DNA of 14,035 nucleotides. It comes from Chloroflexota bacterium (GTDB taxonomy: Bacteria; Chloroflexota; Dormibacteria; CF-121). The DNA is taken from NCBI GenBank assembly GCA_005889285.1, contig VBFF01000033.1, forward strand, positions 1-14,035. Direction: 5' to 3'. This document shows, in pieces, positions 543-14,035 of the stretch. Positions within the stretch are counted from its first letter, which is position 1. Every line of letters starts with the position of its first letter. The notes below the pieces were generated by a model. It was not told the origin of the DNA and searched no databases. It was given only the letters and a program-made list of their open reading frames with translations. Both the position numbers and the translations under genes were made by a program.

Positions 543-567
543 GGCTGGACGTATCGTACGGCAAAAA

Positions 568-606
568 CCCACACCCTACCCTCCCCCGCAAGCGGGGGAG
601 GGTAGA
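568..606 (-). repeat. Long palindromic GC repeat, copy A (hairpin plus G-quadruplex tail)
   Basis: The copy is a 14-bp perfect palindrome (576-589 with 592-605) around a 2-base AA loop. On the minus strand it is followed by a G-rich tail, giving G5-A-G3-TA-G3-TGT-G3. It lies in the 69-base gap between two minus-strand lipoprotein genes, with the G-rich strand co-directional with them. Related copies are at 5335-5373, 6386-6420, 7320-7354, 10597-10631, 10667-10703 and 11071-11105. Confidence 0.9.
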
Positions 607-611
607 GTCTC

Positions 612-1868: not shown

Positions 1869-1874
1869 GGACAC

Positions 1875-1880
1875 ACCTCC
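1875..1880 (-). promoter_or_regulatory. Shine-Dalgarno that decides the start of the propeller lipoprotein
   Basis: GGAGGT reads on the minus strand from 1880 to 1875. It is 6 bases from the ATG at 1868 and 0 bases from the in-frame GTG at 1874, which favours the ATG. Confidence 0.8.
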
Positions 1881-1919
1881 GGACCCTATACAGCCGGAGG
1901 AAGGGTTCGGTTCCCCCGG

Positions 1920-3023
1920 CTAGCGGGAGCGACGCCAGCAGAGCGGGCAGCTCGGCGCGGTCGGAGGGCCGACGATCCGGCGCGCTGGCGCCGACAACGC
2001 CCGGAGGTGATCCCTGAATCCAGTCCCGAACGCCGTGGCGGTCCCGTCGTAGTTGCTGATCAGCGCCGGTCCGCTGGCGCAATCCCAGGTGTCCCAGGTC
2101 CATCCCAGGTAGGAGATCGCCTGGGCGTCCGCCCAGCTCATGTACTGATCGATGTAGCCGTGGCCACAGTCGTCCTCACCCAGTTCACCGGTTACCACCG
2201 GAACCTGTGCGGCGAGGGGCGCGACCGTGTTCGTCCAGCAGGTTGGATCGCAGACATTGAAGTTGTAGTTGTGGAAGGAGGCGACCAGCGCATTGGCCGG
2301 GTCTAACGGTTTGTTCACGGACCAGCCGCTGAGGTCGTTGGACCAGGCCAGGCCGCCGGACATGATCGGTTGAGTCGCGCCCGTCGATCGCACGGCCGTA
2401 ACGAGGGATTGCATGCCCGCCGTCGGCCAGCCCGGCGACGTGCAGCCATTGCGCCAGCACGACCAGCTGACGTCGTGCGGCTCGTTGTAGAGGTCGAAGA
2501 GGACCGCCGGATCCGACTTGAAGACGGACGCGACCGAGGTCCAGAAGGCGGGGGCGTGGTCGGCATCCGGCATCACCTGCTGGCCGGTTGCCTTGGTTGT
2601 CCCGGGCGCATTCCAGTGGAGGTCGAGGATGGCGTACAGCCCGTATTGATGGAGCAGCTTGACGTAAGACTGGATCGCGGCCTGGTAGGGCGTGCCGCCG
2701 TAACCGGGAGCGACGCCGTTGATGTTGAGCCAGCAGTCCTCGTTCATCGGGATGCGCACGGCGTTGATGTGCCAGGCGGCCATCGCCGCGACGGAGGTCG
2801 CGTCGTTGGGGCCGTCGAAGATGCCCCAGCCCTGGATGCAGGCGTACTCCGTTCCCGATCGGTTGACGCCGAGCAACCGGATGGCCTGGCCGCTGCCATT
2901 AACGAGGTGGTTGCCGGACACCCCGATCGAGAGTGGCGCGGTGGCGGGAGGGCCGGGTGCCGGCGGCGGCGGCAGCAGGAGGGCGAACGCCGAAAACGCC
3001 ACAACGAACGCGCGTGGGCCCAT
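1920..3023 (-). CDS. Secreted glycoside hydrolase family 5 (cellulase-like) enzyme
   Basis: This 367-residue protein has an N-terminal hydrophobic signal segment (residues 5-17) and a Pro-rich linker (18-30), followed by a GH5-type (beta/alpha)8 catalytic domain. Visible GH5 landmarks are VRIPMNE (89-95), DLHW (134-137), LYNEP with the acid/base Glu181, HNYN (251-254), TGELGE with the nucleophile Glu280, and the substrate-stacking GWTWDTW (307-313). GH5 enzymes cleave beta-1,4 or beta-1,3/1,6 glucans, mannans and related polymers with retention of configuration; the exact substrate cannot be read here. Several cysteines suggest disulfides in an exported protein. The 17-residue tail after the barrel is Pro/Cys/Arg-rich. 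A GGAGG lies only one base before the ATG at 3023, an unusually short spacing, so the start is moderately certain. It follows the UDP-xylose pathway genes by 42 bases and may trim or release a polysaccharide made by this locus. Confidence 0.9.
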   Translation of the reverse strand: MGPRAFVVAFSAFALLLPPPPAPGPPATAPLSIGVSGNHLVNGSGQAIRLLGVNRSGTEYACIQGWGIFDGPNDATSVAAMAAWHINAVRIPMNEDCWLNINGVAPGYGGTPYQAAIQSYVKLLHQYGLYAILDLHWNAPGTTKATGQQVMPDADHAPAFWTSVASVFKSDPAVLFDLYNEPHDVSWSCWRNGCTSPGWPTAGMQSLVTAVRSTGATQPIMSGGLAWSNDLSGWSVNKPLDPANALVASFHNYNFNVCDPTCWTNTVAPLAAQVPVVTGELGEDDCGHGYIDQYMSWADAQAISYLGWTWDTWDCASGPALISNYDGTATAFGTGFRDHLRALSAPARRIVGPPTAPSCPLCWRRSR

Positions 3024-3065
3024 GCCTCCAGTTAGCCAGCCGGCCGGATCAAAGGCAATGCGAGG

Positions 3066-4052
3066 TCAGTAACCAGGCGGTGACAGCCGTTCGCGGAAGT
3101 AGGCGATCGTTTTGGTCAGGCCGGCATCGAGCGAGGTTCGCGGCTGCCAGTTGAGGAGTTTCCGGGCGCGCGTCAGATCCGGGCGGCGCTGCCGTGGATC
3201 GTCCTCGGGCAGCGGCTTGAAGACGATCTCGCTGGAGCTCCCGCTGAGGTCGCGGATGCGGGTGGCGAGTTGGAGCATGGTGACCTCGTCGTCCGTCCCG
3301 AGGTTGACCGGCTCGGCGTATTCCGTCCCCAGCAGGCGAACGATGCCCTCGATGAGGTCGTCGACGTAGCAGAGGCTGCGCGTCTGCGAGCCGTCGCCAT
3401 ACACCGTGAGGGGTTGGTTCTGGAGCGCCTGGGTCAGGAAGTTGGGGACCGCCCGCCCGTCATCGATTCGCATCCGAGGACCGAAGGTATTAAAGATGCG
3501 AACGATGCGGGTCTTCATTCCGTGCGTGCGGTGATAAGCCATGGTGAAGGCCTCGGCGGCGCGCTTCGCTTCGTCGTACACCGCGCGCGGGCCGATGGGG
3601 CTGACGTTGCCCCAGTAGGTTTCCGGCTGTGGATGCACCGTCGGATCGCCGTAGACCTCGGAGGTGGAGGCAAGGAAGAAGGTCGCGCCCTTGGCGCGTG
3701 CCAGACCCAGCATGTTGTGGGTGCCGAGCGTGCCGACCTTCAGGGTCGCGATCGGGTGATCCGCGTAGTCGGTGGGGGAAGCCGGTGAGGCGAAATGCAG
3801 CACGGCATCGACCGTGTCTTCGAGGTAGAGCGGCTCACTGACGTTGTGCTGCATCGACTCGAACGACTTGTGCTGGCGCAACTGGGCGATGTTCGCGGCC
3901 GTCCCGGTCACCAGGTTGTCGACACACACGACCTGCCAGCCGTCTGCCAGGAGCCGCTCGCAGAGGTGCGATCCGAGAAAACCCGCGCCGCCCGTGACGA
4001 CCGCCCGCAATTTAGGAGCGGCCGACGCCGCGGTAGACGAAGCCGCGTTCAC
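3066..4052 (-). CDS. uxs: UDP-glucuronate decarboxylase (UDP-xylose synthase), extended SDR
   Basis: It converts UDP-glucuronic acid to UDP-xylose with bound NAD+ in the cytoplasm. The 328-residue protein has the nucleotide-binding [10 protein letters not shown] (21-30), HFASPASP (86-93), TSEVYGDP (130-137) and the catalytic Tyr159-x3-Lys163 within [12 protein letters not shown]. It also has [19 protein letters not shown] and [15 protein letters not shown] further on. The [13 protein letters not shown] and DDGR blocks are characteristic of UXS rather than of RmlB or GalE. The GTG start at 4052 lies inside the 3' end of ugd (41-base overlap) and has an AGGA six bases upstream. A later in-frame TTG at 4010 starts just after the ugd stop but has no ribosome site. 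The overlap implies translational coupling: ugd makes UDP-glucuronate and this enzyme uses it. Confidence 0.9.
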
Positions 4053-5307
4053 GCATCGTCCTGGGGTCGAAGATGTTGCGACCGTCGACGATGACCGGGC
4101 GGCGCATCAGGCTCTTGATGCGATCGAGGTCGAGCTGGCGAAATTCGTCCCACTCGGTGACGACCAGGAGGGCATCGGCCCCGGTCGCCACGGCATAGGC
4201 GTCCTTGCAATACGCGATCGAATTCATCTGTGCCTTGAGGACCGGCATCGCCTTGGGATCGTAGGCGCGGACGTCGGCGCCTTTCTGCAGGAGGTTCTCG
4301 ATGACATCAATCGCCGGCGACTCACGGACGTCGTCGGTGTTGGGTTTATACGAGAGGCCCAGCAACCCGATGACCTGGCCTCGCAGGCCGCCGAGTACCT
4401 CGCGCAGTTTCTCGACGACGAGGGTGCGCTGGTCGAGGTTGATCTCCATGACGGCGTCGAGGAGCTCGGGGTGATAGCCCATCGTCTCAGCCATCCGGGC
4501 CAGCGCCTTGACGTCCTTGGGAAAGCAAGAACCGCCGTAGCCGATCCCCGCATCCAGAAAGAGGGGACCGATGCGGCGGTCCATCCCCATGCCTTCGGAG
4601 ACCACCTTGACATCGGCATCAACGCGCTCGCAGATGCGCGCCATCTCGTTGATGAAGGAGATACGGGTCGCAAGAAATGCGTTGGAGGCGTACTTGATCA
4701 TCTCGGCGGTGTGCAGGTCCGTGATCAGGATCTTGGTGTCGAGCGCGCTGTAGAGCGCGGCGACGGCGCGGGCGGCGGGCTCATCATGCGAGCCGAAGAC
4801 CAGCCGGTCTGGATGCATGAAGTCGTGGATGGCACTGCCTTCGCGAAGAAACTCAGGGTTGGAGACGACGTGAAACGGGATCTCGTTTCCGAGGCTCTCG
4901 CCGACGATGCGGGCGACGATATTCCCCGTGCCAATCGGCACCGTGCTCTTGTTGACGATGGTGACCGACTTTTTCATCGCGCCCGCGATGGCCTTGGCCG
5001 CCTGCTTGACGTAGACGAGATCCGCCTCACCCCGCCGACCGGGGGGCGTACCGACGGCGATGAAGACGAAGTCGGCGGCCGGGATTGCCTCGCGATAATC
5101 GCCGGTGAAGACGAGCCGGCCACTCTTCTGGGTCTCCTGCATCAGCTCTTCGAGGCCGGGCTCGTAGATGGTGGCCTCGCCGGACCTGAGCCGCGCAACT
5201 TTCGCCTCGTCGATGTCGACCCCGATCACCTGGTGGCCGAGCTTGGCCAGGCAGACGGCGGTCGTCAATCCGACGTAACCGGTGCCGATCACCGCAATTG
5301 CACTCAT
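4012..5307 (-). CDS. ugd: UDP-glucose 6-dehydrogenase
   Basis: It oxidises UDP-glucose to UDP-glucuronate using two NAD+. The 431-residue protein has an N-terminal NAD-binding motif (GTGYVGL, residues 8-14), the VGTPPG segment (85-90), NKSTVPIGT (119-127), the central [12 protein letters not shown] block with Lys205, and the catalytic Cys261 in [10 protein letters not shown], with Asp265. The C-terminal UDP-binding domain contains [17 protein letters not shown] start at the ATG at 5307 ([13 protein letters not shown]). The frame can be extended to 5382, but those 25 codons come from an intergenic palindromic repeat (5335-5373) and precede the usual family N-terminus. It heads a minus-strand block continuing into UDP-xylose synthase and GH5, consistent with synthesis of a xylose- or uronate-containing surface glycan. 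It is divergent from the RmlB-like gene at 5412. Confidence 0.95.
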
Positions 5308-5334
5308 CGCCCTGCAGAGTGTAACGAAGGGATT

Positions 5335-5373
5335 CCCCCCACCCTGACCCTCCCCCGCGAGCGCGGCCAGGGG
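5335..5373 (-). repeat. Long GC repeat, copy B (degenerate hairpin, intact G-tract tail)
   Basis: The minus strand shows G5-A-G3-TCA-G3-T-G6, matching the repeat tail, but the first palindrome arm is degraded (GGCCGCGC in place of the usual C-run). It lies in the 104-base gap between divergent ugd and the RmlB-like gene. It ends 27 bases before the ugd ATG, so it may lie in the ugd leader RNA. Promoters for both genes should be in or near this gap, but no convincing -35/-10 pair is visible. Confidence 0.75.
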
Positions 5374-5411
5374 AATGGACAAGATCGCGCAGGGGTCGGC
5401 GTTTTTTGGTC

Positions 5412-6383
5412 ATGGGCAAGCTCCGGATCCGCCACCTCCTCGTCGCCGGTGGCGCCGGATTTCTGGGGTCGGCGTTCGTCCGCGATCGGCTCCGGGCCGA
5501 CCCCGAGATCCTGATCACCGTCCTGGACGCCCTCCGCCGCGCGGGTGCCGAGGCGGACCTGCAGGATGTCGATGATGACCGGCGGTTCACGCTGGTCCAG
5601 GGCGACGTCCGCGACCGGGCGGTGGTCGAACGACTGGCCGCGTCGGTCGACGCCACCATCAACTTTGCCAGCGAGGAGTTCACTGAGAGTGGCGTCGCGG
5701 ATGGGCCGGCCCTCGCGCGGACCGACATCGAGGGCACCGCGGTGCTGCTCGAGGCGGCCCGCAAGTTCCAGCACCAGCGCTTCCTGCTGGTCAGCAGCGG
5801 CGAGGTCTACGGGCCGTTGAAGGCGGCCGCCAATCGCGAGGAGGATCGGCTCGCTCCCACAAGCCTGCCGGCCTCGGTGCGGGCCGCCGCCGAGACCCTG
5901 GCCGGCGCCTACCAGGCCAGCTACGGGGTCCCCGTTCTGATTACGCGCGCGGCCACCGCCTATGGCCCGCGCCAGCCGGTCAACCAGTTCGTTGCGGGCC
6001 TGATCACGAGCGCGCTGAGCGGGCAGACAGTCTTCATCGCGGGCAACGGCTCGGCGACGCGCGACTACCTGCACGTCGATGACCAGGTGGCGGGGATCGC
6101 GCGCGTCCTGTGGAAGGGTGAGCCGGGCACGGTCTACAACATCGGCGACGGGGTTCAGATCAGTGGCAGCCAGCTGGCCGAGACGATCCTCGACGCCTGC
6201 GGCAAGGCTTCCTCGCTCAAGCGGCTCACCAGGGAGGGCCAGGGCTGGTCGTATGCGGTCGATCCTCGACGGATGCGGCCCCTCGGTTGGGACCCGCTGG
6301 TCAGGTTCCCCGAGGGGATCCGGCAGACGGTGGACTGGTACCGGCGCAACGAAGCCTGGTGGCGCTTGCGCAAGACCGCATAG
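5412..6383 (+). CDS. RmlB-like extended SDR protein with replaced catalytic Tyr/Lys
   Basis: It resembles dTDP-glucose 4,6-dehydratase/epimerase proteins: GGAGFLGS near the N-terminus, VQGDVRD, INFASEE, VSSGEVYGPL, RAATAYGPRQ, GNGSATRDYLHVDD and TVYNIGDG occur in the family order. From the ATG at 5412 it is 323 residues; a TTG six bases earlier is also in frame. No good ribosome site precedes either. The usual P-S-S-P-Y-S-A-S-K-A segment reads P-T-S-L-P-A-S-V-R-A here, so the catalytic Tyr is Pro and the Lys is Arg (about residues 153 and 157 from this ATG). The usual Thr-Asp-Glu triad is Ser-Gly-Glu. The fold and NAD site look intact, so it may be a binding or regulatory protein, or catalyse something different. 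It is divergent from ugd, which places it in the same sugar-nucleotide locus. Confidence 0.85.
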   Translation: MGKLRIRHLLVAGGAGFLGSAFVRDRLRADPEILITVLDALRRAGAEADLQDVDDDRRFTLVQGDVRDRAVVERLAASVDATINFASEEFTESGVADGPALARTDIEGTAVLLEAARKFQHQRFLLVSSGEVYGPLKAAANREEDRLAPTSLPASVRAAAETLAGAYQASYGVPVLITRAATAYGPRQPVNQFVAGLITSALSGQTVFIAGNGSATRDYLHVDDQVAGIARVLWKGEPGTVYNIGDGVQISGSQLAETILDACGKASSLKRLTREGQGWSYAVDPRRMRPLGWDPLVRFPEGIRQTVDWYRRNEAWWRLRKTA

Positions 6384-6385
6384 AT

Positions 6386-6420
6386 CTCTCTCCCGCTTGC
6401 GGGGGAGGGCAGGGTGGGGG
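6386..6420 (+). repeat. Long GC repeat, copy C
   Basis: The copy has hairpin arms CTCTCTCCCGC and GCGGGGGAGGG around TT, then a tail giving G5-A-G3-CA-G3-T-G5 on the plus strand. Both departures from the perfect palindrome are C-to-T in the left arm, which still allow G-U pairs in a plus-strand RNA. It lies just after the SDR gene stop and is convergent with the cold-shock gene terminator. Confidence 0.85.
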
Positions 6421-6421
6421 C

Positions 6422-6450
6422 AAAAAAGAAGGGCGCCCCGCAGGGCGCCC
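6422..6450 (-). terminator. Intrinsic terminator of the minus-strand cold-shock gene
   Basis: GGGCGCCC occurs at 6443-6450 and again at 6431-6438. The motif is self-complementary, so it forms an 8-bp stem around a 4-base loop. On the minus strand it is followed by TTCTTTTTT. It lies 21 bases past the stop codon of the gene ending at 6471. Confidence 0.92.
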
Positions 6451-6470
6451 GGTCGAATGTCGAGTCCCGC

Positions 6471-6674
6471 CTAGGCGGCGCGAACGTGGTTCGCTCGCGG
6501 TCCCTTCTGGCTCTGCTCGATGTCGAAGCTGACGGCCTCGCCACCGCGCAGGCTGTCGAAGTTCAGGGAGGTGTCAACACCACTCTGATGGAAGAAGTAT
6601 TCCTTGCCATCATCGGCGGCGATGAACCCAAATCCGCGGTCGGACACGATTTTCTTTACGGTGCCTTTTGGCAT
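6471..6674 (-). CDS. Cold-shock domain protein (CspA family), copy 1
   Basis: This 67-residue single cold-shock domain binds single-stranded RNA/DNA as an RNA chaperone or antiterminator. RNP1 is RGFGFI (residues 13-18) and RNP2 is YFFHQS (26-31). The C-terminal SQKGPRANHV matches the family end. The early aromatic of CspA (KWFN) is replaced by KKIV, a variant also found in the second copy at 7476. Start ATG 6674 is preceded by AGGAGGAG (6690-6683). A longer frame running through from 7679 is an artefact of reading through the neighbour and its repeats. It has its own terminator and a structured leader (6691-6780) similar to that of copy 2. The two differ at many residues, so they are old or diverged paralogues. 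Confidence 0.95.
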   Translation of the reverse strand: MPKGTVKKIVSDRGFGFIAADDGKEYFFHQSGVDTSLNFDSLRGGEAVSFDIEQSQKGPRANHVRAA

Positions 6675-6690
6675 TGCCCGTTCTCCTCCT

Positions 6691-6780
6691 CTCGAACACC
6701 GAATTGAACGCATCGGCCCTGTTCGAGAGAGAAGAATGCCGGCCGCACGCGAGATCACCCGAAGGCCGGGCGAACGGGTG
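6691..6780 (-). promoter_or_regulatory. Structured leader of cold-shock gene copy 1
   Basis: Read on the minus strand, CACCCG (6780-6775) can pair with CGGGTG (6761-6756). CTCGAACA (6727-6720) then pairs perfectly with TGTTCGAG (6698-6691), enclosing 21 bases with a small CCGA/TCGG inner stem. The second helix directly abuts the AGGAGGAG ribosome site. The copy 2 leader has the same order of elements and shares CTCGAACAGG. A cold-responsive RNA structure is inferred; transcription of the region is not shown. Confidence 0.55.
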
Positions 6781-6821
6781 TACTTTAGCACACTCCCCCG
6801 CCGGGGGCCAGAATAGCGCTC

Positions 6822-7274
6822 ATGAGCTGGTACAGCCTGCTGAAGTTCGTTCACGTGCTGCTGGCGATCACGGCGGTCGGCAGCAACATTACCTATGCAG
6901 CCTGGAATATCCGAGGCGCCCGCGAGCCGCAACACCTCGCCTTCGCCCTGAAGGGGATCAAATTCCTCGATAACCGGGTGGCGAACCCCGCCTACGGGCT
7001 CCTCCTGCTGACCGGCTTGATCCTGGTCGCGGTCGGGAAGTGGGGGCTGAGGGGCTGGATTGTCGCCGGCCTGATTCTTTTCGTGGTCCTGATCGTGGTC
7101 GCCGTGGGGTTCTACTCGCGGGTGACGACGCGGCAGATCCAGGCGCTCGAGACGGCGGGCGAGGCTTCGCCGCCCTACCAGCAGCTGGCGGGGCAGGCGC
7201 GGATCTACGGCATCGTCAGCGGGGTGATCGCCCTCGCCATCGTCTTCATGATGGTCGTCAAGCCTTTCCCCTAA
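6822..7274 (+). CDS. Small integral membrane protein, DUF2269-like
   Basis: This 150-residue protein has four predicted membrane helices: about residues 4-28 (beginning YSLLKFVHVLLAI), 54-72, 77-98 and 128-146. The opening LLKFVHVLLAITAVGSN, with a conserved-looking His in helix 1, resembles the DUF2269 family of predicted membrane proteins, whose function is not known to me. The stretch between helices 3 and 4 (about residues 99-127) is polar, with RVTTRQIQ. The ATG at 6822 has only a weak upstream purine run. It is divergent from cold-shock copy 1 and is followed, after repeat copy D, by cold-shock copy 2. Its placement between the two cold-shock genes may be coincidental. Family assignment is from recall of the pattern and is moderately sure; the coding call is firm because of length, hydrophobic pattern and context. 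Confidence 0.8.
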   Translation: MSWYSLLKFVHVLLAITAVGSNITYAAWNIRGAREPQHLAFALKGIKFLDNRVANPAYGLLLLTGLILVAVGKWGLRGWIVAGLILFVVLIVVAVGFYSRVTTRQIQALETAGEASPPYQQLAGQARIYGIVSGVIALAIVFMMVVKPFP

Positions 7275-7282
7275 GACCATTT

Positions 7283-7354
7283 CCCTCCCCCGCGTGGGCG
7301 GGAGAGTACGGGCCTTTTTCCCTCCCCCGCGTGCGGGGGAGGGTAGGGTGGGGG
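7283..7354 (+). repeat. Composite GC repeat, copy D (short hairpin, T-rich spacer, long hairpin plus G-tail)
   Basis: A short, imperfect hairpin (7283-7306) and a CCTTTTT spacer are followed by the long unit. The long unit has an 11-bp perfect stem, 7320-7330 with 7333-7343 (loop GT), and then the tail to 7354, giving G5-A-G3-TA-G3-T-G5. It fills most of the gap after the DUF2269-like gene and stands upstream of the cold-shock copy 2 leader. The hairpin plus T-run may also terminate the upstream transcript. Confidence 0.9.
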
Positions 7355-7385
7355 TTTGAACCGCTTCCGCACTGGGTACTCTCCT

Positions 7386-7459
7386 AGCGCACCCACTCGG
7401 GGTGCGCTCGCCGGGCCCCGCTCGAACAGGCCTCGACAGCGCGAGGCAGTACGTTCGGG
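7386..7459 (+). promoter_or_regulatory. Structured leader of cold-shock gene copy 2
   Basis: AGCGCACCC (7386-7394) pairs perfectly with GGGTGCGCT (7400-7408) around a 5-base loop. Then CTCGAAC (7421-7427) pairs with GTTCGGG (7453-7459), one pair being T-G. Inside is a nested perfect GCCTCG/CGAGGC stem (7430-7435 with 7442-7447). The second helix ends one base before the AAGGAGGT ribosome site (7461-7468). Architecture, motif CTCGAACAGG and distance to the ATG (55 versus 53 bases) match the leader of copy 1. Confidence 0.6.
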
Positions 7460-7460
7460 A

Positions 7461-7468
7461 AAGGAGGT
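7461..7468 (+). promoter_or_regulatory. Near-consensus ribosome binding site of cold-shock gene copy 2
   Basis: AAGGAGGT lies 7 bases before the ATG at 7476. It fixes the start; the same frame is open upstream from 7356 through non-coding leader. Confidence 0.9.
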
Positions 7469-7475
7469 CCACACA

Positions 7476-7670
7476 ATGTCTGGAACCATCAAGAAGCTCG
7501 TCGCCGAGCGCGGATTCGGGTTTATCACCGCCGAAGACGGCAACGACTACTTCTTCCATCGCAGCGGCAGCGCCGACTTCGATCGCCTGGATACCGGTGT
7601 CAAGGTCAGTTTCGTAACTGAGCCGAGCCCCAAGGGTCCGCGAGCGACCAACGTTCGCGCCGAGGTCTAA
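7476..7670 (+). CDS. Cold-shock domain protein (CspA family), copy 2
   Basis: This 64-residue single cold-shock domain protein is predicted to bind single-stranded nucleic acid. RNP1 is RGFGFI (residues 12-17), RNP2 is YFFHRS (25-30), and the end is SPKGPRATNVRAEV. Compared with copy 1 (6471-6674) it lacks a few residues in the loop after RNP2 (GSADFDRL against GVDTSLNFDSL) and shares the KK(L/I)V(A/S)(E/D)RGFGFI opening. It has an almost ideal ribosome site, a two-hairpin leader (7386-7459) and a strong terminator (7686-7720). It is therefore most likely a monocistronic gene that can be highly expressed. The family is certain; induction by cold is inferred, and the window has no promoter I can call with confidence. 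Confidence 0.95.
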   Translation: MSGTIKKLVAERGFGFITAEDGNDYFFHRSGSADFDRLDTGVKVSFVTEPSPKGPRATNVRAEV

Positions 7671-7685
7671 AGAGACCATAAGAGA

Positions 7686-7720
7686 GACCCCCGCCCCGAG
7701 AGGGCCGGGGGTCTTTTTTT
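7686..7720 (+). terminator. Intrinsic terminator after cold-shock gene copy 2
   Basis: GACCCCC plus GCCC pairs with GGGC plus GGGGGTC (one bulged base) around a short loop, followed by seven T (7714-7720). It starts 16 bases after the stop codon. Confidence 0.93.
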
Positions 7721-7759
7721 GCCTTAGGCACTCTGACCGAGCAGGAACGGCGTCACCGC

Positions 7760-10555
7760 ATGGTCACACCGGTGGAGCTAATGGCACCCCCCGCCCCGGT
7801 CCTCCCCAGCAAGCACGTGGGGAGGTACTTTCAGACCTTCCGGCATCTCAACCGGGACTTCGCCATCGCCGCCGCGCTGGCGGCCCTCCTGACGGCCGGA
7901 TTTGGCGCCTGGATGGCGCTGCGGGTCGCGGGCGTCGACGTCAGCCAGGCGGTTGACGATGTCGGGGAGGGGGTGGCCGCGCTGTTGGCCGCGGCTGCCT
8001 GCGCCGTGGCGGCGTGGCGCCATCGCGGTCGCATGCGACTGGCGTGTGCATTGCTCGGGGCATCGGCGCTCGTCTGGACGGCGGGCGAAGCCGCCTGGTG
8101 CTACTTCGAACTCATCCTCAAGCAGCAGGTGCCCTTTCCGTCCGCCGCCGACGCCGGGTTCCTGGCGGCGGTGCCCTTCGTCGTCGCCGGGGTCGCCTTC
8201 TTCCCGGGTCGCCATCGCGCGGCCTCGCGCCCCGCCTCACTGCTGGACGGCGCCATCATCGCGGGCGCGCTGCTGCTGATCAGTTGGGCCACCGTTCTCG
8301 GCATCGTCTACCGCGCCGGCTCCGACTCGACCCTGTCGATGCTGCTCGGCCTGGCCTATCCGATCAGCGACATCGTGATCGCCGTCATGGCGCTCATGCT
8401 GCTGGGCCGCACCGCCGGGGCGGCGCGCCTTCCCCTGTTGTTGGTGACGGCCGGCCTCTTCGCGTCGCTCCTATCCGATAGCGCCTTGGCCTACCTGACC
8501 GCGGGCAACGCCTACGGCAAGGTGCAACTCATCGATACTGGCTGGGTCGCCGGCTACCTCCTGATCGCGCTCGGCGCTGTCCGGGCGGCCCTTGCGGCCG
8601 GGCCGGCCGCCGAGGCCGATGATCAGCCGTTCGGTCGCTGGACACTCGTGCTCCCCTACATCCCGGTGACGATCGCCGCGGTCCTCGCCGTGCTCAAGAA
8701 CGTCGGTGGTGCGCCCGACCCCTTCCTGCTCTGGGACCTCATCATCGTGGTCGGACTCGTCCTGCTCCGTCAGTTCATCGTGATCTGGGACAACTACGCG
8801 CTCAACCAGAAGCTGGAATCGCAGTCCGCCGCGTTGCGAGACAGTGAAGCGCACTTCCGCTCGCTGGTGCAGAACTCCGGTGACGTCGTGGTGCTCGCCG
8901 ATGCGCAGGGCGTGGTTCGCTTCGTCAGTACCTCGATCGACCGGTTCTTCGCCTATACCGCGACCGAGCTCGAGGGTCAAGCCTTCAGCGAGCTCCTGCA
9001 TCCATCCGACCGGGCGGCGTTTGCCGCCGGCTTGAAGAAGGCGCTGACGGCGTCGGCGATGCCGGTCGGCGTCGACTGCCGGTTCCGGCACAAGCTCGGC
9101 AGCTGGACCCACTGCGAGGTGACGATCACCAACCTCCTGCACCGGTCGAGCTCGCAGGCGCTGGTGTTGAACATCCGCGACGTGACCGACCGGAAGGAGA
9201 TGGAAGAGCGGCTCGCCTATCTCGGGGCGCATGACCCCGTCACGAACCTGCCGAACCGGATCGCTTTTCGCAACCAGGTCGACGAGGCGCTGGAGCGCAG
9301 CGCACCGGGGCGCGCCATTGCCGTGCTGGCGCTCGACATCGATGACTTCAAGCTGCTCAATGACGCGCTCGGGCACCGCACCGGCGACGACGTCCTGGGA
9401 ATGGTCGGCGGGCGGCTGGGAAAGATCGTGTCCGCCGGCGACGTGGTGGCGCGGATCGGCGCGGACGAGTTTGGGATCCTGATGAAGACCGTTCTCAACG
9501 ACAATCAGCCGGTCCGCCTGGCGGAGCGCATCTTCCAGCATTTCAGAACTCCGTTCAAGGTGGAGGAGCGCGAGATGGTCATGCGGCTCAGCATCGGGAT
9601 CACTGGGCCGGCCGCGCTCGAGGACACGGCTGAGAACCTGATGCGCAACGCGGACATTGCCCTCAACGCGGCCAAGGCGCGCGGCAAGGGGAGGTACGAG
9701 CGATACGAGCCGACCCAACATGCGGCCATCAGCGACCGGATGGATCTCGAGTCCGACCTGGCGCACGCGCTGGAACGGCGCCAGTTCGTGCTCCACTATC
9801 AGCCGGCGGTTCGGCTCCGCGACGGTACGATCATCGGGTTCGAGGCTTTCCTGCGGTGGAATCATCCGCGTCGCGGCTTGCTCGCTCCCGGGGATTTTCT
9901 TGACCTGGCCGAGGAGACCGGGATGGTCAGCGCGCTGCAACGCTGGGTGCTCGGACAGGCGTGCGCCGACGGGCGGCGCTGGCAGCTCAAGTTTCCGGTG
10001 GAGCCGGCGCTCCAGGTCAGCGTCAACGTCAGCCAGCGCGGGTTGACCGAGGCCGACCTCGTGGCCGATGTCACCCAGGCCTGCACCGCCGCCGCGTTTC
10101 CCCCCGCGCAGCTCGTCCTCGAACTGACCCAGGGCGCGACGCTGGAAGGCAAAGCGATCGTCCCCCGCTTGCTCGAGCTCCACGAGCGCGGGGTGAGCGT
10201 GGCGCTGGATGACTTCGGGGCTCACGCGGCGCCCTTGAGCGCGCTGCGCGACTTACCAGTGGACATCGTCAAGCTCGATCACTCCTTCGTCGCCCGGATG
10301 GCCACCAGTCCGACCGATGCCACCGTCGCCCGAGCGGTCATCGACCTGGGCAATGCCCTTGGAATGATGACGATCGCCGACGGGATCGAGCGGGCCGATC
10401 AGCTCGCTGCGCTGCGCGAGATGAATTGTCCCGCCGGGCAGGGCTATTACCTGTCTCGGCCCTTACCGGCCGCAGGCGTCGACCGCCTGCTGGCCGAGTG
10501 CGCCCGTGATGGGGGACTAGTGGTGCCGGCGTTCCGTCTCGACCGCGCCAGCTAA
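7760..10555 (+). CDS. Membrane-anchored PAS-GGDEF-EAL protein (cyclic di-GMP turnover or sensing)
   Basis: This 931-residue protein has about nine or ten hydrophobic segments (about residues 34-343), a PAS domain (about 360-475), GGDEF (about 480-650) and EAL (about 660-910). The GGDEF part keeps DIDDFKLLND and GHRTGDD, but the signature is GADEF (567-571). The allosteric RxxD site five residues upstream reads SAGD, so product inhibition is probably absent. The EAL part has GFEAFLRW (Glu695), Asn756, Glu788, Asp817-Asp818, Lys838, Glu877 and QGYY. The usual ELTES is ELTQG, and the loop normally read DDFGTGYSS is DDFGAHAAP. Metal ligands therefore look mostly present while the loop 6 region is altered, and net activity cannot be read from sequence. 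The membrane region resembles no named sensor I recognise with certainty. Start ATG 7760 is chosen; ATG 7781 with GGTGGAG three bases before it is an alternative. It is likely monocistronic and followed by repeat array E. Confidence 0.93.
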   Translation: MVTPVELMAPPAPVLPSKHVGRYFQTFRHLNRDFAIAAALAALLTAGFGAWMALRVAGVDVSQAVDDVGEGVAALLAAAACAVAAWRHRGRMRLACALLGASALVWTAGEAAWCYFELILKQQVPFPSAADAGFLAAVPFVVAGVAFFPGRHRAASRPASLLDGAIIAGALLLISWATVLGIVYRAGSDSTLSMLLGLAYPISDIVIAVMALMLLGRTAGAARLPLLLVTAGLFASLLSDSALAYLTAGNAYGKVQLIDTGWVAGYLLIALGAVRAALAAGPAAEADDQPFGRWTLVLPYIPVTIAAVLAVLKNVGGAPDPFLLWDLIIVVGLVLLRQFIVIWDNYALNQKLESQSAALRDSEAHFRSLVQNSGDVVVLADAQGVVRFVSTSIDRFFAYTATELEGQAFSELLHPSDRAAFAAGLKKALTASAMPVGVDCRFRHKLGSWTHCEVTITNLLHRSSSQALVLNIRDVTDRKEMEERLAYLGAHDPVTNLPNRIAFRNQVDEALERSAPGRAIAVLALDIDDFKLLNDALGHRTGDDVLGMVGGRLGKIVSAGDVVARIGADEFGILMKTVLNDNQPVRLAERIFQHFRTPFKVEEREMVMRLSIGITGPAALEDTAENLMRNADIALNAAKARGKGRYERYEPTQHAAISDRMDLESDLAHALERRQFVLHYQPAVRLRDGTIIGFEAFLRWNHPRRGLLAPGDFLDLAEETGMVSALQRWVLGQACADGRRWQLKFPVEPALQVSVNVSQRGLTEADLVADVTQACTAAAFPPAQLVLELTQGATLEGKAIVPRLLELHERGVSVALDDFGAHAAPLSALRDLPVDIVKLDHSFVARMATSPTDATVARAVIDLGNALGMMTIADGIERADQLAALREMNCPAGQGYYLSRPLPAAGVDRLLAECARDGGLVVPAFRLDRAS

Positions 10556-10571
10556 ACGCGACTCCTAAAAT

Positions 10572-10631
10572 CCCTCCCCGCTTGCGGAGTCTTTTTCCCT
10601 CCCCCGCTTGCGGGGGAGGGTAGGGTGGGGG
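10572..10631 (+). repeat. Composite GC repeat, copy E unit 1
   Basis: A short hairpin (CTCCCCGC-TT-GCGGAG, 10574-10589) and TCTTTTT are followed by a long perfect hairpin (10597-10607 with 10610-10620) and the tail to 10631, giving G5-A-G3-TA-G3-T-G5. It begins 17 bases after the GGDEF-EAL stop and may act as its terminator through the short hairpin and T-run. Confidence 0.9.
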
Positions 10632-10640
10632 CCTTTTTTT

Positions 10641-10703
10641 CTCCCCGCCCTGCGGAGTTTTCATTTCCCCTCCCCCGCGTGCGGGGGAGGGTCAGGGAGG
10701 GGG
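10641..10703 (+). repeat. Composite GC repeat, copy E unit 2, left end of the DUF559 unit
   Basis: A second unit with the same order lies about 70 bases after the first: short hairpin CTCCCCGC-CCT-GCGGAG (10641-10657), T-rich spacer, long hairpin (10668-10690) and tail to 10703, giving G5-A-G3-TCA-G3-A-G5. The tail overlaps the 3' end of the DUF559 gene and, on the minus strand, supplies its last Pro codons and TGA stop. Confidence 0.9.
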
Positions 10704-11057
10704 TTCGAGCAAGACGATGCGAATCTTTTCCAGGACGCTTTCAGTCTGTTGAAGAACTTCGTTGTTCCAGAAACGCAGGACTCTGAAGCCCCGACCTCGG
10801 AGCCACGCCGTGCGCTCTTCATCTCGGCTGAGGGCCGGCTGGTGCTGGCTGCCGTCGACCTCGACAACGAGCTGAGCTTTTACGCAGAGGAAATCGACGA
10901 CGTAGGGTCCCATGGGAACTTGGCGACGGAAGTGGTGGCCACCCATCTGGTTTGCGCGGAGTCGGAACCAGAGACGAACTTCGGCATCTGTCATCTGGTC
11001 GCGCAGTTCTCGGGCTCGCTGAGGGTCAGGACGCGACACGCTGGGCATAACGATCAT
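10692..11057 (-). CDS. DUF559 (Vsr-like, restriction-endonuclease-fold) protein
   Basis: This 121-residue protein fits the DUF559 family, relatives of the very-short-patch-repair endonuclease with a PD-(D/E)xK-like fold. The family order is visible: ARELRDQMTDAEVRLWFRLR (15-34), GHHFRRQVPMGPYVVDF (40-56, Asp55), LVVEVDGSQH (63-72, Glu66 and Asp68), DEERTAWLRGRGFRVLRFWNN (79-99). These residues are likely metal ligands, inferred from the family. The frame extends upstream to 11312, but that part translates a GC repeat and precedes the family N-terminus, so ATG 11057 (or ATG 11048) is preferred. Neither has a classic ribosome site; a G-rich repeat tail ends 13 bases before 11057. The last codons (PPP-stop) lie in the repeat on the other side. 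The physiological role of DUF559 proteins is unclear to me; repair, restriction or mobility are all possible. Confidence 0.88.
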   Translation of the reverse strand: MIVMPSVSRPDPQRARELRDQMTDAEVRLWFRLRANQMGGHHFRRQVPMGPYVVDFLCVKAQLVVEVDGSQHQPALSRDEERTAWLRGRGFRVLRFWNNEVLQQTESVLEKIRIVLLEPPP

Positions 11058-11070
11058 CAGCAACGTTACG

Positions 11071-11151
11071 CCCCCACCCTGCCCTCCCCCGCAAGCGGGG
11101 GAGGGAACAATCAACGCGCTCACCGTGCCCCTCCCGAGTAAGCGGGAGAGG
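11071..11151 (-). repeat. Composite GC repeat, copy F, right end of the DUF559 unit
   Basis: Read on the minus strand, a short imperfect hairpin (11151-11127) is followed by a 21-base spacer. The long perfect hairpin comes next (11105-11095 with 11092-11082), then the tail to 11071, giving G5-A-G3-CA-G3-T-G5. The orientation is inverted relative to copy E, and the tail points at the DUF559 start. Confidence 0.87.
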
Positions 11152-11231
11152 CAAATCGGAACGAAAGCGGTGGAGGCGAATAGAAAAGCAAGTAGGGTAA
11201 GACTCAAACCAACAAGGAGAAGGAGGATCGC

Positions 11232-11807
11232 ATGGGCAGGATCGTGGTAACCGAGTTCGTCTCGCTCGATGGCGTGATGGAGGACCCGGGCGGCAGCGAG
11301 CACTCGAAGCACGGAGCCTGGACCTTCAAGTTCAATCGCGGCGAAGAGGGCAACAAGTTCAAGGTCGACGAGGTCCAGAACGCCGAGGCGCAGCTATTGG
11401 GCCGCGTGACCTATGAGGGCTTTGCCGAGGCCTGGCCAACCAGGACTGGTGACCCGTTCTCGGACAAGTTCAACAGCATGCCGAAGTACGTCGTCTCCTC
11501 GAAGCTGAAGAAGGCCGACTGGAACAACTCGACGATCCTCAAAGGGGACGTCGTCGACGAGGTTTCCAAGCTCAAGCAGAAGGTGCCTGGCGACATCCTG
11601 GTCAGCGGCAGCGCGAAGCTGGTGCAGACGCTGATCGCGAATGACCTCGTCGACCAGTTGAACCTGATGGTCTTTCCGGTCATCCTCGGGAGCGGGAAGC
11701 GGCTCTTCGGTGAAACCAAGGACCTCAAGACGCTCCAGCTGGCGGAGTCAAAGACCGTTGGCGACGGCGTCGCCATCCTTGTTTACAAGCCCGCCGGCAA
11801 GAACTAG
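11232..11807 (+). CDS. Dihydrofolate reductase-family protein (RibD C-terminal-like domain)
   Basis: This 191-residue cytoplasmic protein belongs to the RibD_C/bacterial DHFR-like superfamily (YyaP/YwjB type). Landmarks are the opening IVVTEFVSLDGVMEDPGG (residues 4-21), LLGRVTYEGFAEAWP (55-69), KYVVSSKL (85-92), and GDILVSGSAKLVQTLIANDLVDQLNLMVFPVILGSGKRLF across about 120-160. These match an NADPH-binding reductase fold. Members outside riboflavin synthesis mostly lack a known substrate, so a true dihydrofolate reductase activity should not be assumed. The ATG at 11232 has AGGAGG (11221-11226) five bases upstream. It is transcribed away from the DUF559 gene. No riboflavin or folate genes lie in the window. 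There is no clear terminator immediately after it; the structured region at 11816-11957 follows and could end its transcript or lead the next gene. Confidence 0.9.
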   Translation: MGRIVVTEFVSLDGVMEDPGGSEHSKHGAWTFKFNRGEEGNKFKVDEVQNAEAQLLGRVTYEGFAEAWPTRTGDPFSDKFNSMPKYVVSSKLKKADWNNSTILKGDVVDEVSKLKQKVPGDILVSGSAKLVQTLIANDLVDQLNLMVFPVILGSGKRLFGETKDLKTLQLAESKTVGDGVAILVYKPAGKN

Positions 11808-11815
11808 CCATGGGG

Positions 11816-11957
11816 AAGTGACGGCAATCGGCGGACGGGACTACGTAATCCGAAGGAGACCCGGCCCCGAATTCACCGATCCGTCACTTTTCCCTCGCAG
11901 ACCACGTTCATCGCTTTGACCTCCTGCGAGGGACTGGATGCCACACTGAGCCCAGTC
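11816..11957 (+). promoter_or_regulatory. Multi-hairpin region upstream of the Flp pilin gene
   Basis: Three inverted repeats lie in series. AAGTGACGG (11816-11824) pairs with CCGTCACTT (11881-11889), extended inward by ATCGG/CCGAT. CCCTCGCAG (11892-11900) pairs with CTGCGAGGG (11924-11932). GACTGG (11932-11937) pairs with CCAGTC (11952-11957), followed by TCTTT. The first could terminate the reductase transcript. The set could instead be a pilin mRNA leader. TTGACC at 11916-11921 resembles a -35 box but has no good -10 partner. It matches no riboswitch class I know. Confidence 0.5.
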
Positions 11958-11965
11958 TCTTTCAC

Positions 11966-11974
11966 AGGAGGTGA
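11966..11974 (+). promoter_or_regulatory. Perfect ribosome binding site of the Flp pilin gene
   Basis: AGGAGGTGA lies 5 bases before ATG 11980 and overlaps the alternative GTG at 11971, so the ATG is the start. Full match to the anti-Shine-Dalgarno suggests high expression, as expected for a structural pilin. Confidence 0.9.
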
Positions 11975-11979
11975 AACGA

Positions 11980-12159
11980 ATGTTTGCCAGCATCTACAAC
12001 AAGATCCGCAATCTGCTCAACCGTGAGGAAGGGCAGGGTATGGTCGAGTACGCCCTTATCCTCGTCTTGATCGCCGTCGTGGTCATCGTAGTTCTGATCA
12101 TCCTCGGCAACCAGGTCAAGAACGTCTTCTGCAACATCTCGGGCGGTCTGGGCCAGTAG
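11980..12159 (+). CDS. flp: Flp-type IVb pilin
   Basis: This 59-residue prepilin is the major subunit type of Tad/Flp pili, used for adhesion and surface colonisation. It has a short basic leader (MFASIYNKIRNLLNREEG) and then QGMVEYALILVLIAVVVIVVL, the Flp hydrophobic N-terminal helix. The family pattern G|xxxxEY predicts cleavage by a TadV-type peptidase after Gly18, leaving Glu23 as the fifth mature residue next to Tyr24. A single Cys51 lies near the C-terminus. No tad/cpa/rcp assembly genes are in this window, so the assembly machinery must be encoded elsewhere or further along. The gene has a perfect ribosome site, a structured upstream region and a strong terminator, so it is probably expressed alone at a high level. 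It converges with the exporter gene on the other strand. Confidence 0.95.
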   Translation: MFASIYNKIRNLLNREEGQGMVEYALILVLIAVVVIVVLIILGNQVKNVFCNISGGLGQ

Positions 12160-12174
12160 GCCTCAACCGCAAGC

Positions 12175-12212
12175 GAGAAAGGGTCCCAACGCGGGGCCCT
12201 TTCTCTTTTTTT
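12175..12212 (+). terminator. Intrinsic terminator of the Flp pilin gene
   Basis: GAGAAAGGGTCCC (12175-12187) pairs with GGGGCCCTTTCTC (12193-12205). This makes a 13-bp stem with one G-T pair and a 5-base loop, followed by seven T. Confidence 0.95.
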
Positions 12213-12225
12213 GTCCCCGCTCGTT

Positions 12226-13710
12226 CTAGGCGGCGGTCTCTTCGGCGACCTCGGCGGTCCGCGGCCGCAGGGTCCCGCTGAAGACCGCCACCGCAATCGC
12301 AAATCCCAGCAGCGCGATAGCGGCGGCCAACAGGAATCCGCTCCCGTACCCCGCGGCCAGGGCATGATTCACGACCGCATGCGTCGGTTGGATGCCGGCC
12401 AGCTGATTCCTGGTCGTCGTCGCGGCAATCGTCCCCAGCAACGCGATGCCGATCGATCCGCCGATCTGCTGCCCAACGTTGAGCAGCGCCGAGGCGAGGC
12501 CAGACTCCGCGGGGCTTGCGCCCGAGACTGCCATCAGCGTGAGCGGGACGAAAATATTGCCCATCCCGATGGCGATCAACAGCATCGGTCCGAGCAGCCC
12601 GCCCACATATGTCGTCTGGTCATTGATCCGGGAAAGCCAGAACAAGCCTCCGGCGACGAACAATGGGCCGATGGTGATGAAGAGTCGCGGCCCCAAGCGG
12701 CCGACCAGCCGGGCAACGATTTGCGCCGTGATGATGATCGTAGCGGCCAACGGAAGGAAGGCGACCCCGGCGACCAGCGGACTGAAGCCGAGGACGTTTT
12801 GCACGAACTGGGTCAGGAAGAAGAAGACGCCAAAAACGGCGACCCCGACGACGAGGGATAACACGTAGGCACCATCGCGATTGCGCCGCGCAAAAATGCT
12901 GAAGGGCATCAGCGCGTGCCGGGTGCGAGATTCGATGGCCAGGAAGATCAGCAGGAGCGCGCCGGCAAGGCCGAGCGCCGTGAGCGTCATCGTGTCGGTC
13001 CAGCCATAGGTGGCGGCGCGCGACAGGCCGTAAACCAGGAGCACCATCCCGCCGGTGGCCGTGAGTGCTCCGGGCAGGTCGAGCCCACCGTCCCGCCCCT
13101 TCGATGGCGCGAGTACGCGCGGGGCCACGATCGCGAGCAGGATGCCGATGGGCACGTTCACGAACAGGACCCAGCGCCATGAGGCAAAGCTGGTGAGCAC
13201 GCCGCCGAGGAGCAGTCCCGTCGCGCCGCCCGCACCGGCCACGGCCCCGTAAACGCCAAGCGCCCGATTGCGGTCCGGGCCCTCGCTGAAGGTGTCGGCG
13301 ATGAGTGACAGGGCGGTGGGCGCCACGATCGCCGCGCCGATTCCCTGCGCGGCGCGCGCAACGATCAGCCAGGTCGCGCTGGTGGCAAAGCCGCCGGCGA
13401 GTGAGCCGAGGGTGAAGACCACGATGCCCACGACGAACATGCGGCGCCGTCCGAACAGGTCGCCGGCGCGGCCGCCGAGGAGCAGCAAGCCGCCGAATGT
13501 AAGGGCGTAGGCGTTGATGACCCATTCCAGGTCAGTGGCGCTGAACTGCAGCGCTCGTTGAATCGACGGCAGGGCGATGTTGACGATGGTCGCGTCGAGG
13601 ACGACCATCAGTTGCGCCGCCGCGATCACAATGAGCGCGAGGCCGAGGTTGCGAGGGAGGGGAGCGATCTTGCGGTCCGTCGCGGAAGCGGTCGAAGTGT
13701 CAGTGCTCAT
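12226..13710 (-). CDS. MFS multidrug exporter, DHA2 (EmrB/QacA) family
   Basis: This 494-residue inner-membrane protein has the hydrophobic pattern of a 14-helix drug:H+ antiporter. Family motifs are LDATIVNIALPSI (38-50, motif D1), GRAGDLFGRR (80-89, motif A), ARAAQGIGAA (118-127, motif B), GAVAGAGGATGLLLGG (155-170, motif C) and RWVLFVNVPIG (179-189). The length is usual for the family. Substrates cannot be read from sequence. ATG 13710 has an AAGGG about 11 bases upstream. The gene follows the HisKA-containing gene on the same strand by 97 bases, so the two could be co-transcribed or the exporter could have its own promoter in the gap, which holds an AATAAT (+ strand ATTATT at 13737-13742) but no clear -35. 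No TetR/MarR regulator is seen next to it. Confidence 0.93.
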   Translation of the reverse strand: MSTDTSTASATDRKIAPLPRNLGLALIVIAAAQLMVVLDATIVNIALPSIQRALQFSATDLEWVINAYALTFGGLLLLGGRAGDLFGRRRMFVVGIVVFTLGSLAGGFATSATWLIVARAAQGIGAAIVAPTALSLIADTFSEGPDRNRALGVYGAVAGAGGATGLLLGGVLTSFASWRWVLFVNVPIGILLAIVAPRVLAPSKGRDGGLDLPGALTATGGMVLLVYGLSRAATYGWTDTMTLTALGLAGALLLIFLAIESRTRHALMPFSIFARRNRDGAYVLSLVVGVAVFGVFFFLTQFVQNVLGFSPLVAGVAFLPLAATIIITAQIVARLVGRLGPRLFITIGPLFVAGGLFWLSRINDQTTYVGGLLGPMLLIAIGMGNIFVPLTLMAVSGASPAESGLASALLNVGQQIGGSIGIALLGTIAATTTRNQLAGIQPTHAVVNHALAAGYGSGFLLAAAIALLGFAIAVAVFSGTLRPRTAEVAEETAA

Positions 13711-13810
13711 GCATGCGAAACCCTTCGGGTGGGCCGATTATTCAAGCCTGGACCCCCTACGTTCGGGGGATTACATCAGGGGTTTCGTGTTACGGGGCCA
13801 GAGTGGGGTC

Positions 13811-14035
13811 TTAGGCTGTCTGCCCGATCGCGACCCGCACCTCGAGCTCCGACCCGGTGGGCTCGAGAAGCCGCCGGATGACGGCGTTCAGCTCCTCGCA
13901 CTTCTCGAGGATGAGCGCGCACGCCCGTTCGCGCTGCTCCGGTGACAGCTCGTTGGAGCTCAGGAGCTGGGCGTAGCCGTTGATGACGGCCAGGGGCGTG
14001 CGCAGATCGTGACCCAGCGCTCTGAGCTCAGCGTC
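13811..14035 (-). CDS. C-terminal end of a HisKA-domain protein lacking an ATPase domain (partial)
   Basis: The last 74 codons of a minus-strand gene enter from the right edge. They encode a histidine-kinase dimerisation/phosphoacceptor domain: ELRALGHDLRTPLAVINGYAQLL, where His9 of the fragment is the H-box phosphorylation site (HDLRTP for the usual HExxxP/HELRTP). A second amphipathic helix with ECEELNAV-like character (EKCEELNAVIRRLLE) follows. The stop at 13811 comes only about 20 residues after the two-helix hairpin, so there is no HATPase_c domain. The next 100 bases before the exporter gene cannot hold one in any frame. The protein may be a phosphotransfer or decoy partner, or a truncated kinase. 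The N-terminal part, which could hold PAS, GAF or receiver domains, lies outside the window. Confidence 0.85.
   Translation of the reverse strand, partial: DAELRALGHDLRTPLAVINGYAQLLSSNELSPEQRERACALILEKCEELNAVIRRLLEPTGSELEVRVAIGQTA

Follow-up and report, generated by a model that had tools for sequence, protein, structure and literature searches.

What holds a small nuclease gene between inverted copies of a palindromic repeat, and could the enclosed gene account for the repeat's presence? The question is raised by a stretch of 14,035 nucleotides from a Chloroflexota bacterium (GenBank assembly GCA_005889285.1, contig VBFF01000033.1, positions 1 to 14,035; hereafter "the window," meaning this whole stretch). 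In it, hairpin-plus-tail repeats flank a DUF559 gene in inverted orientation with their tails pointing inward, as an earlier prediction made from the sequence alone (the original prediction) had described. Our answer, to which we assign a probability of about 0.6, is that gene and repeats together form a minimal mobile element with inverted ends of the BoxC/TM type, in which the nuclease would supply the catalysis. The parts of this reading that can be observed directly are the conserved architecture of the unit, the co-variation of repeat and protein, the in-frame insertions in metH and DUF1156 genes, and, in a genome of the same class (G126), internally deleted copies with 8-bp target duplications. 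The unit in the window consists of the following features:

10692..11048, minus strand: DUF559 (PF04480) gene, 118 amino acids, predicted PD-(D/E)XK / Vsr-like nuclease (Pfam match and translation)
10668..10703, plus strand: inner left palindrome and tail, perfect nine-triad class-II motif, tail toward the gene (triplex scan)
11071..11105, minus strand: right palindrome and tail, perfect nine-triad motif, tail toward the gene (triplex scan)
10597..10631, plus strand: outer left palindrome and tail, perfect nine-triad motif, oriented like the inner left copy (triplex scan)
10641..10657, no strand: short outer-left hairpin, weak (from the sequence)
11128..11150, no strand: short outer-right hairpin, weak (from the sequence); its right half alone is left in the empty site of the relative G008

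The tail of each long repeat mirrors the right arm of its palindrome, with A allowed as T (arm GGGGGAGGG, tail GGGTGGGGG), so the repeat has the symmetry required of a class-II purine-motif intrastrand triplex. When scanned for at least eight triads with at most one mismatch, the window gave five class-II motifs, four of them perfect over nine triads. The palindrome pattern (up to three mismatches) occurs 48 times in the 1.73-Mb draft assembly, which is estimated to be 82% complete, versus once for the reversed control pattern, and a chance origin of the window repeats was rejected. The part common to 17 oriented copies from 15 loci, window included, is by eye the palindrome plus tail, about 36 bp. 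The tail of the inner left copy overlaps the 3' end of the DUF559 gene, whose final codons (PPP and the stop) lie inside it. The long flanking repeats had been called nearly identical; this does not hold for the inner pair, in which right and inner left copies are 83% complementary over 35 nt. The right copy has its best inverted partner in the outer left copy, which had not been listed (10592-10632 / 11070-11110, 95% over 41 nt). The loose match of the short outer hairpins was described correctly, and both are weak. A search of the window against Rfam gave no match at gathering scores.

Judged by their sequence, the window repeats are BoxC/TM-type class-II intrastrand-triplex motifs with predicted folding. 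The BoxC/PIT/TM repeats (TMECO), as described in the available part of the source (Holder et al. 2015; PMC4666352), likewise consist of a hairpin and a mirror tail, are G/C-rich and of class II, and number 23 copies in E. coli K-12, with no mobility gene found there; the same part reports that PIT/BoxC elements lack promoter and terminator activity. The window copies are of class II by the same kind of rule and differ in being tied to DUF559. A role of the repeats purely as terminators was rejected. About 165 bp downstream from ycjD, the DUF559 gene of E. coli K-12, there is a copy that by eye resembles BoxC/TMECO (L271:5205-5241) and has, also by eye, the TTA second loop published for TMECO type A; a degenerate hairpin stands at the ycjD 3' end. 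The ycjD site alternates with eefRABCD. E. coli was rejected as a clean case, as ycjD has a BoxC copy (by eye) on its 3' side only.

The window protein matches PF04480 with 136.2 bits (cut-off 20.6; 137.8 bits in a second scan), and residues E23, D52, E63, D65, H69, and D76 are invariant in 44 aligned rows. Its AlphaFold model (mean predicted local distance difference test score 87.3, predicted template modeling score 0.82) has the order helix-helix-EEE-H-E-H, which we take to be the PD-(D/E)XK core. A solved relative is 3HRL (E = 1.7e-30), and the mobile intron protein 3R3P gave a weak, nonsignificant match (E 0.83). From profile and model, DUF559 is thus a predicted PD-(D/E)XK / Vsr-like nuclease. 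It resembles Vsr, YcjD, and VsrA in profile or fold and in conserved acidic and His residues, although the known or proposed role of those proteins is very-short-patch (VSP) repair, and no published tie of theirs to flanking repeats was found in the literature searched. For a protein with a DUF559 domain, VsrA of Caulobacter, a need in the DNA-damage response of cells without ScmA is reported (PMC12907096).

The same anatomy recurs, with lineage-specific sequence, at many loci. A genome scan with a five-member alignment gave at least 586 stretches, of which 558 were confirmed and the best 80 kept as loci; statistics on these 80 concern the subfamily nearest to the window's DUF559. By record titles, the scan loci belong to Alpha-, Beta-, Gamma-, and Deltaproteobacteria, Chloroflexi, Nitrospirae, Elusimicrobia, Binatota, Dadabacteria, a Singulisphaera, and others. 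Together with three loci from the window's family there were 83, of which 82 could be scored (the flank of L023 is too short), and 65 of the 82 reached an inverted-repeat score of at least 16, as did 7 of 3,927 random windows drawn from these loci. The claim that repeats are enriched at DUF559 relative to other genes was borne out by the same threshold, which was reached at 61 of 77 DUF559 genes, whereas other open reading frames (ORFs) at these loci reached it in 11 of 833 cases, and small ones in 3 of 268. Because orthologous loci inflate such counts, we also grouped 79 loci by flank or protein similarity, and 45 of the 51 resulting groups have a member scoring at least 16 (42 of 51 if only the first member is taken).

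The repeats are not only near the gene but oriented with respect to it. At 78 loci the strict motif pointed inward on both sides in 30, inward on one side with the other empty in 19, inward and outward in five, and outward only in two, with no motif in 22; counted by side, 84 are inward and seven outward. Two inward motifs flank none of 785 control genes, 57 of which have any motif. Within 1.21 Mb, 134 of 225 triplex motifs lie no more than 300 nt from DUF559. Motif pairs less than 400 nt apart and far from DUF559 are head-to-head (14), tail-to-tail (12), or direct (eight), whereas pairs spanning DUF559 are tail-to-tail in 25 cases and direct in two. Within the window's family, six of 18 genomes have a DUF559 match; L017, L018, and L019 show inward copies on both sides by eye, as does L022 on its one visible side (it lies at a contig end), and the palindrome sequences of L018 and L022 differ from that of the window. 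A plasmid collection held 45 records with a DUF559 match; among the 10 whose flanks were read, the strict scanner found a motif in seven and inward motifs on both sides in two. In two cyanobacterial plasmids (L276, L280), the gene is flanked, as judged by eye, by another class of palindrome (CCCCCCTAGCCCCCCAATTCTGGGGGG type) that the strict scanner does not call. Four of 50,697 phage records match DUF559.

Repeat and protein also vary together. Where a locus has repeat copies close to DUF559 as well as others over 1 kb away (21 loci), the distant copies resemble the DUF559-flanking copies of their own locus (0.598, versus 0.430 when permuted, p = 1e-4), and across 55 loci repeat similarity tracks protein similarity (Mantel r = 0.30, p = 2e-4). 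At the level of whole genomes, 142 of 301 from Chloroflexota have a DUF559 match. The triplex motif occurs in 72 of the 91 with a strong match versus 69 of the 210 others (odds ratio 7.7), or, counting any match, in 95 of 142 versus 46 of 159; for five or more motifs per genome, permutation within families gave p = 0.0076.

Evidence that units of this kind have moved comes from G126, a draft genome estimated to be 92% complete. With its 595-bp DUF559 unit as query, there were 57 matches in G126 and no more than two in each of 15 other genomes. The matches include three near-complete units (100, 95, and 93%), two fragments, and twelve internally deleted copies of about 300 bp that retain only the ends (about 1/46-238 plus 481/503-595) and lack the gene core. 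We examined 14 copies (three full, 11 deleted; C21 left out) and could place both ends in 13. Their flanking 8-mers are identical in six copies and agree at seven of eight positions in two, six of eight in three, and four of eight in two (in L296, one of the latter, they are perfect by eye after a one-base shift). Mean agreement is 6.77 of 8 versus 3.74 for mismatched pairs, a value reached in 0 of 20,000 permutations; the three full copies score 8/8, 6/8, and 6/8, and the target-duplication consensus is NNCTAGNN. The G126 units thus behave like a transposon with its miniature inverted-repeat transposable elements (MITEs), having inverted ends, an 8-bp target duplication, and deleted derivatives, in this genome only. 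Such features are those of insertion sequence/MITE pairs, from which the G126 family differs in that DUF559 is the only gene seen in its full copies, with no known transposase. In some other genomes, DUF559 units come as a similar pair (78-95% over 303-616 bp), and these genomes may have other active families: L168/L170 (G177, adjacent), L121/L135 (G182), L152/L159 (G305), L178/L190 (G117), and L161/L172 (G096).

DUF559 units also lie in frame within other genes. For metH, matches were found in 51 of 61 genomes and 30 loci were read; the linker carries an in-frame DUF559 unit in eight, a gene-less repeat-like peptide in three, and another or short linker in 17, and it was not located in two. 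The MetH interdomain linker (L241-L270) also accommodates other in-frame repeat-like peptides, such as GTGLAPVQGAGASPAPT and VDTYASTQV, and seems to be a preferred site for the insertion of repeats. Ten host proteins were scanned with Pfam and gave DUF1156 (L110, L199), MmeI (L126), type ISP (L145, L147), N6_N4_Mtase (L187, L194, L201), and DNA_alkylation (L174); eight of these ten long ORFs are of DNA-methylase or restriction-modification type (L110, L126, L145, L147, L187, L194, L199, L201). In-frame copies scoring at least 16 are six metH loci, L113, L140, L199, L143, and L174, where L113, L140, and L199 are DUF1156-type, the first two by sequence likeness. In-frame palindromic repeats in protein genes are known from the Rickettsia palindromic elements (available part of PMC10969869), from which the metH and DUF1156-type units differ in that they also carry a nuclease domain. 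In four Chloroflexota hosts (L187, L201, L203, L210), DUF559 is embedded in what by eye is intein-like sequence (ending ...VHNC), without flanking repeats. Two of these hosts are N6/N4 DNA methylases by Pfam (L187, L201), and the other two (L203, L210) are alike in sequence. The same domain perhaps has a homing-type role there, and no intein profile matched the Pfam-scanned in-frame host proteins at E <= 1e-5.

Does the window itself record a movement? The original prediction suggested looking for empty sites, and sites without the unit do exist. The relative G008 has one at the orthologous position (L212), where L212 853-1413 aligns with window 10001-10561 and L212 1405-2064 with window 11139-11795. 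The features involved are:

7760-10555, plus strand: GGDEF/EAL gene, one neighbor of DUF559
11232-11807, plus strand: RibD_C gene, the other neighbor
10562..11138, no strand: segment missing from the orthologous site in G008 (locus alignment)
10553..10561, no strand: 9-nt direct repeat on the left, TAAACGCGA, adjoining the missing segment and including the stop of the EAL gene
11139..11147, no strand: right 9-nt direct repeat TAAGCGGGA, like the left at seven of nine positions, with one copy in G008

In a third genome, G013, the site is occupied as it is in the window. By RibD_C protein identity, G008 (96%) is a closer relative of the window than is G013 (92%). Given that G013 is occupied and that the closer G008 keeps half of the outer hairpin, the alignment makes deletion in G008 more likely than insertion in the window, and the site was not taken as a case of insertion. 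The proposed MITE-like nature of the unit is upheld in G126, with its multiple copies, deleted derivatives, and target duplications, and not by the window's own empty site, which looks like a loss. Among the matches listed for Sinorhizobium in the plasmid collection (40 of 151 records), no clean empty site was found.

How might such a unit move? It would comprise a Vsr/YcjD-type PD-(D/E)XK gene between hairpins whose G-rich tail is predicted to fold back as a third strand. DUF559 may recognize these hairpin or triplex ends, perhaps when they are single-stranded at replication forks, and could nick or cut them so that the segment between two inverted ends moves, with or without its own gene; joining would be finished by DUF559 itself or by host repair. 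Dispersed solo and paired repeats, as well as the deleted copies, would then be nonautonomous products, related to DUF559 as repetitive extragenic palindromes (REPs) are to RAYTs (REP-associated tyrosine transposases) and MITEs to transposases. A wider version would make DUF559 a one-protein transposase of a new class, with a Vsr/PD-(D/E)XK fold and a recognition of triplex-forming hairpin ends, one that founded and spread BoxC/TM repeats in many phyla, E. coli included, and makes transposons, MITEs, and in-frame insertions; this we put forward tentatively, at slightly under even odds.

Several results weigh against movement by DUF559. The window repeats are abundant in its genus whether or not the gene is present: all 15 genomes have 11-77 copies, including 10 without a DUF559 match (among them G008 with 74 copies and G010 with 77), and no dependence of copy number on DUF559 was seen across the 15. 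The suggestion that DUF559 drives the spread of the repeat thus gains from the association and from G126, and loses from these counts. Target duplications were seen in G126 alone, and a generic test at 52 plus 47 other loci gave no signal, with low power (it also missed L139 of G126). Over their left part, the deleted G126 copies have 70-73% identity with the unit and hence are no recent offshoots of the units now in the genome. Some DDE transposases commonly leave 8-bp duplications around inverted ends, so it could be a different enzyme that moves the G126 family; an action of DUF559 on the repeat is something we infer. The nine metH-embedded DUF559 domains form one clade (100/100) in a 111-row tree, which implies one gain followed by descent and loss, and metH was accordingly rejected as evidence of repeated gain. 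The similarity of distant to flanking repeats ranks the own locus first in only 11 of 21 cases.

A less biased sample, 108 among the matches listed for Chloroflexota (28 existing loci plus 80 fetched), is also less favorable. Standalone ORFs of up to 300 amino acids reached a score of 16 in only 43 of 85 (two further genes had too short a flank) and longer ORFs in 11 of 21, with 12 of 2,584 control windows. The 10 of 21 long-ORF in-frame copies without such a score include L110 (14), L126, L145, L147, L194, and the intein-like L187, L201, L203, and L210. Orientation in 84 standalone cases is mixed, with 13 in/in, 10 out/out, nine in/out, 17 in/none, eight none/out, and 27 none; the 20 long-ORF loci gave six in/in, two out/out, one in/out, three in/none, one none/out, and seven none. 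The original prediction had named three joint signs of failure, namely, DUF559 genes without flanking repeats, no enrichment at DUF559 loci, and no strain with an empty site. They do not occur together, yet repeats are missing at some DUF559 genes (at 7 of 79 loci there is neither an inverted repeat scoring at least 14 nor a motif).

It is unlikely, in our estimation, that DUF559 is a homing enzyme that cuts existing BoxC/TM repeats, its gene being copied by recombinational repair while the repeats serve as target or homology arms and spread by other means. The gene does sit between copies of a repeat that is abundant elsewhere, the repeats persist without DUF559, the domain also occurs without repeats in the intein-like sequence of methylase genes, and there is the weak, nonsignificant match to 3R3P; the lack of an intein profile match at E <= 1e-5 counts on the other side. 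Homing leaves unexplained the 8-bp duplications and deleted copies at unrelated sites in G126, as well as the units in metH or DUF1156 genes, where no prior repeat is needed. Alternatively, G126-type elements (and perhaps BoxC) could be moved in trans by a transposase of the DDE or another kind, with DUF559 as cargo or as a selfish stabilizing gene. Target duplications of 8 bp with inverted ends do occur in DDE elements, and G126 is a draft, 92% complete; the copy numbers in the window's genus, which show no requirement for DUF559, agree with this. However, all but three of 28 end-sequence matches in G126 (the three being lone and weak) lie in or beside units, and among these 28 matches no other long element with G126 ends is visible in the draft. 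For a passenger gene one would also not predict a place between repeats in 45 of 51 groups, together with repeat sequence that co-varies, and we consider such a role quite improbable.

We give even less credence to a housekeeping function, in which DUF559 would be a mismatch- or structure-specific (VSP-like) repair nuclease and the repeats would gather through its breaks or regulate or terminate the gene. The relatives speak for it: the available parts of the sources state that the YcjD profile detects Vsr (PMC1189080), that mismatch repair is the predicted role of the endonuclease VsrA of Caulobacter (PMC12907096), and that gonococcal Vsr enzymes, which may or may not belong to DUF559, cleave T:G mismatches in vitro and are responsive to MutL (PMC6116569). 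Repair does not predict inverted repeats on two sides that mostly point inward, multicopy units, in-frame metH units, or deleted copies with duplications, and the G126 result argues against it as a full account; regulation or termination sits poorly with the reported inactivity of PIT/BoxC as promoter or terminator (available part of PMC4666352).

Movement by DUF559 would have a close parallel in REP/RAYT systems and REPtrons, where many-copy small palindromes, also as dimers, accompany a flanked transposase gene (available part of Di Nocera et al. 2013; PMC3733652). As described there, RAYTs are IS200/IS605-like tyrosine transposases whose repeats carry GTAG, whereas the window-type enzyme is PD-(D/E)XK/Vsr-like and its repeat is triplex-type without GTAG. 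The unit would thus work in the manner of REP/RAYT without belonging to it, since enzyme and repeat tag differ; membership was rejected, the flanked gene being PF04480. The CGTC repeats are likewise without a dedicated transposase in the available part of the same source. The original prediction knew of no description of such a nuclease-based analog. The repeat type is in fact published (BoxC/PIT/TM) and the enzyme family is known, but their joining is new as far as the literature searched goes: among the papers listed we found nothing linking DUF559/YcjD with BoxC, triplex, or palindromic repeats, in a search that had most subscription papers and preprints outside its range.

Elsewhere in the window, two further repeat copies stand away from DUF559:

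7320..7354, plus strand: repeat copy with nine perfect triads (triplex scan)
568..602, minus strand: repeat copy with one mismatch (triplex scan)

Inverted arms of 86 and 58 nt at 6476-6665 / 7482-7662, 79-81% complementary, are seemingly two back-to-back cold-shock protein genes; the one at 7356-7670, the sole one of the pair scanned, has a Pfam CSD match. The stretch 11971-12205 comprises a small pilin-like ORF (62 amino acids, by eye) and, after it, a terminator-like hairpin with a T run at about 12175-12205.

BoxC/PIT/TM repeats have been without a known mover (available part of PMC4666352), and a dedicated nuclease, if the reading is true, would explain their spread. It would also bring a Vsr-type enzyme into the small set of those that mobilize DNA, define a very small autonomous element of about 440-600 bp, and explain the DUF559/YcjD family, so far without a firm function. 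With ycjD and its BoxC neighbor in E. coli, the question can be put to the test in a laboratory strain.
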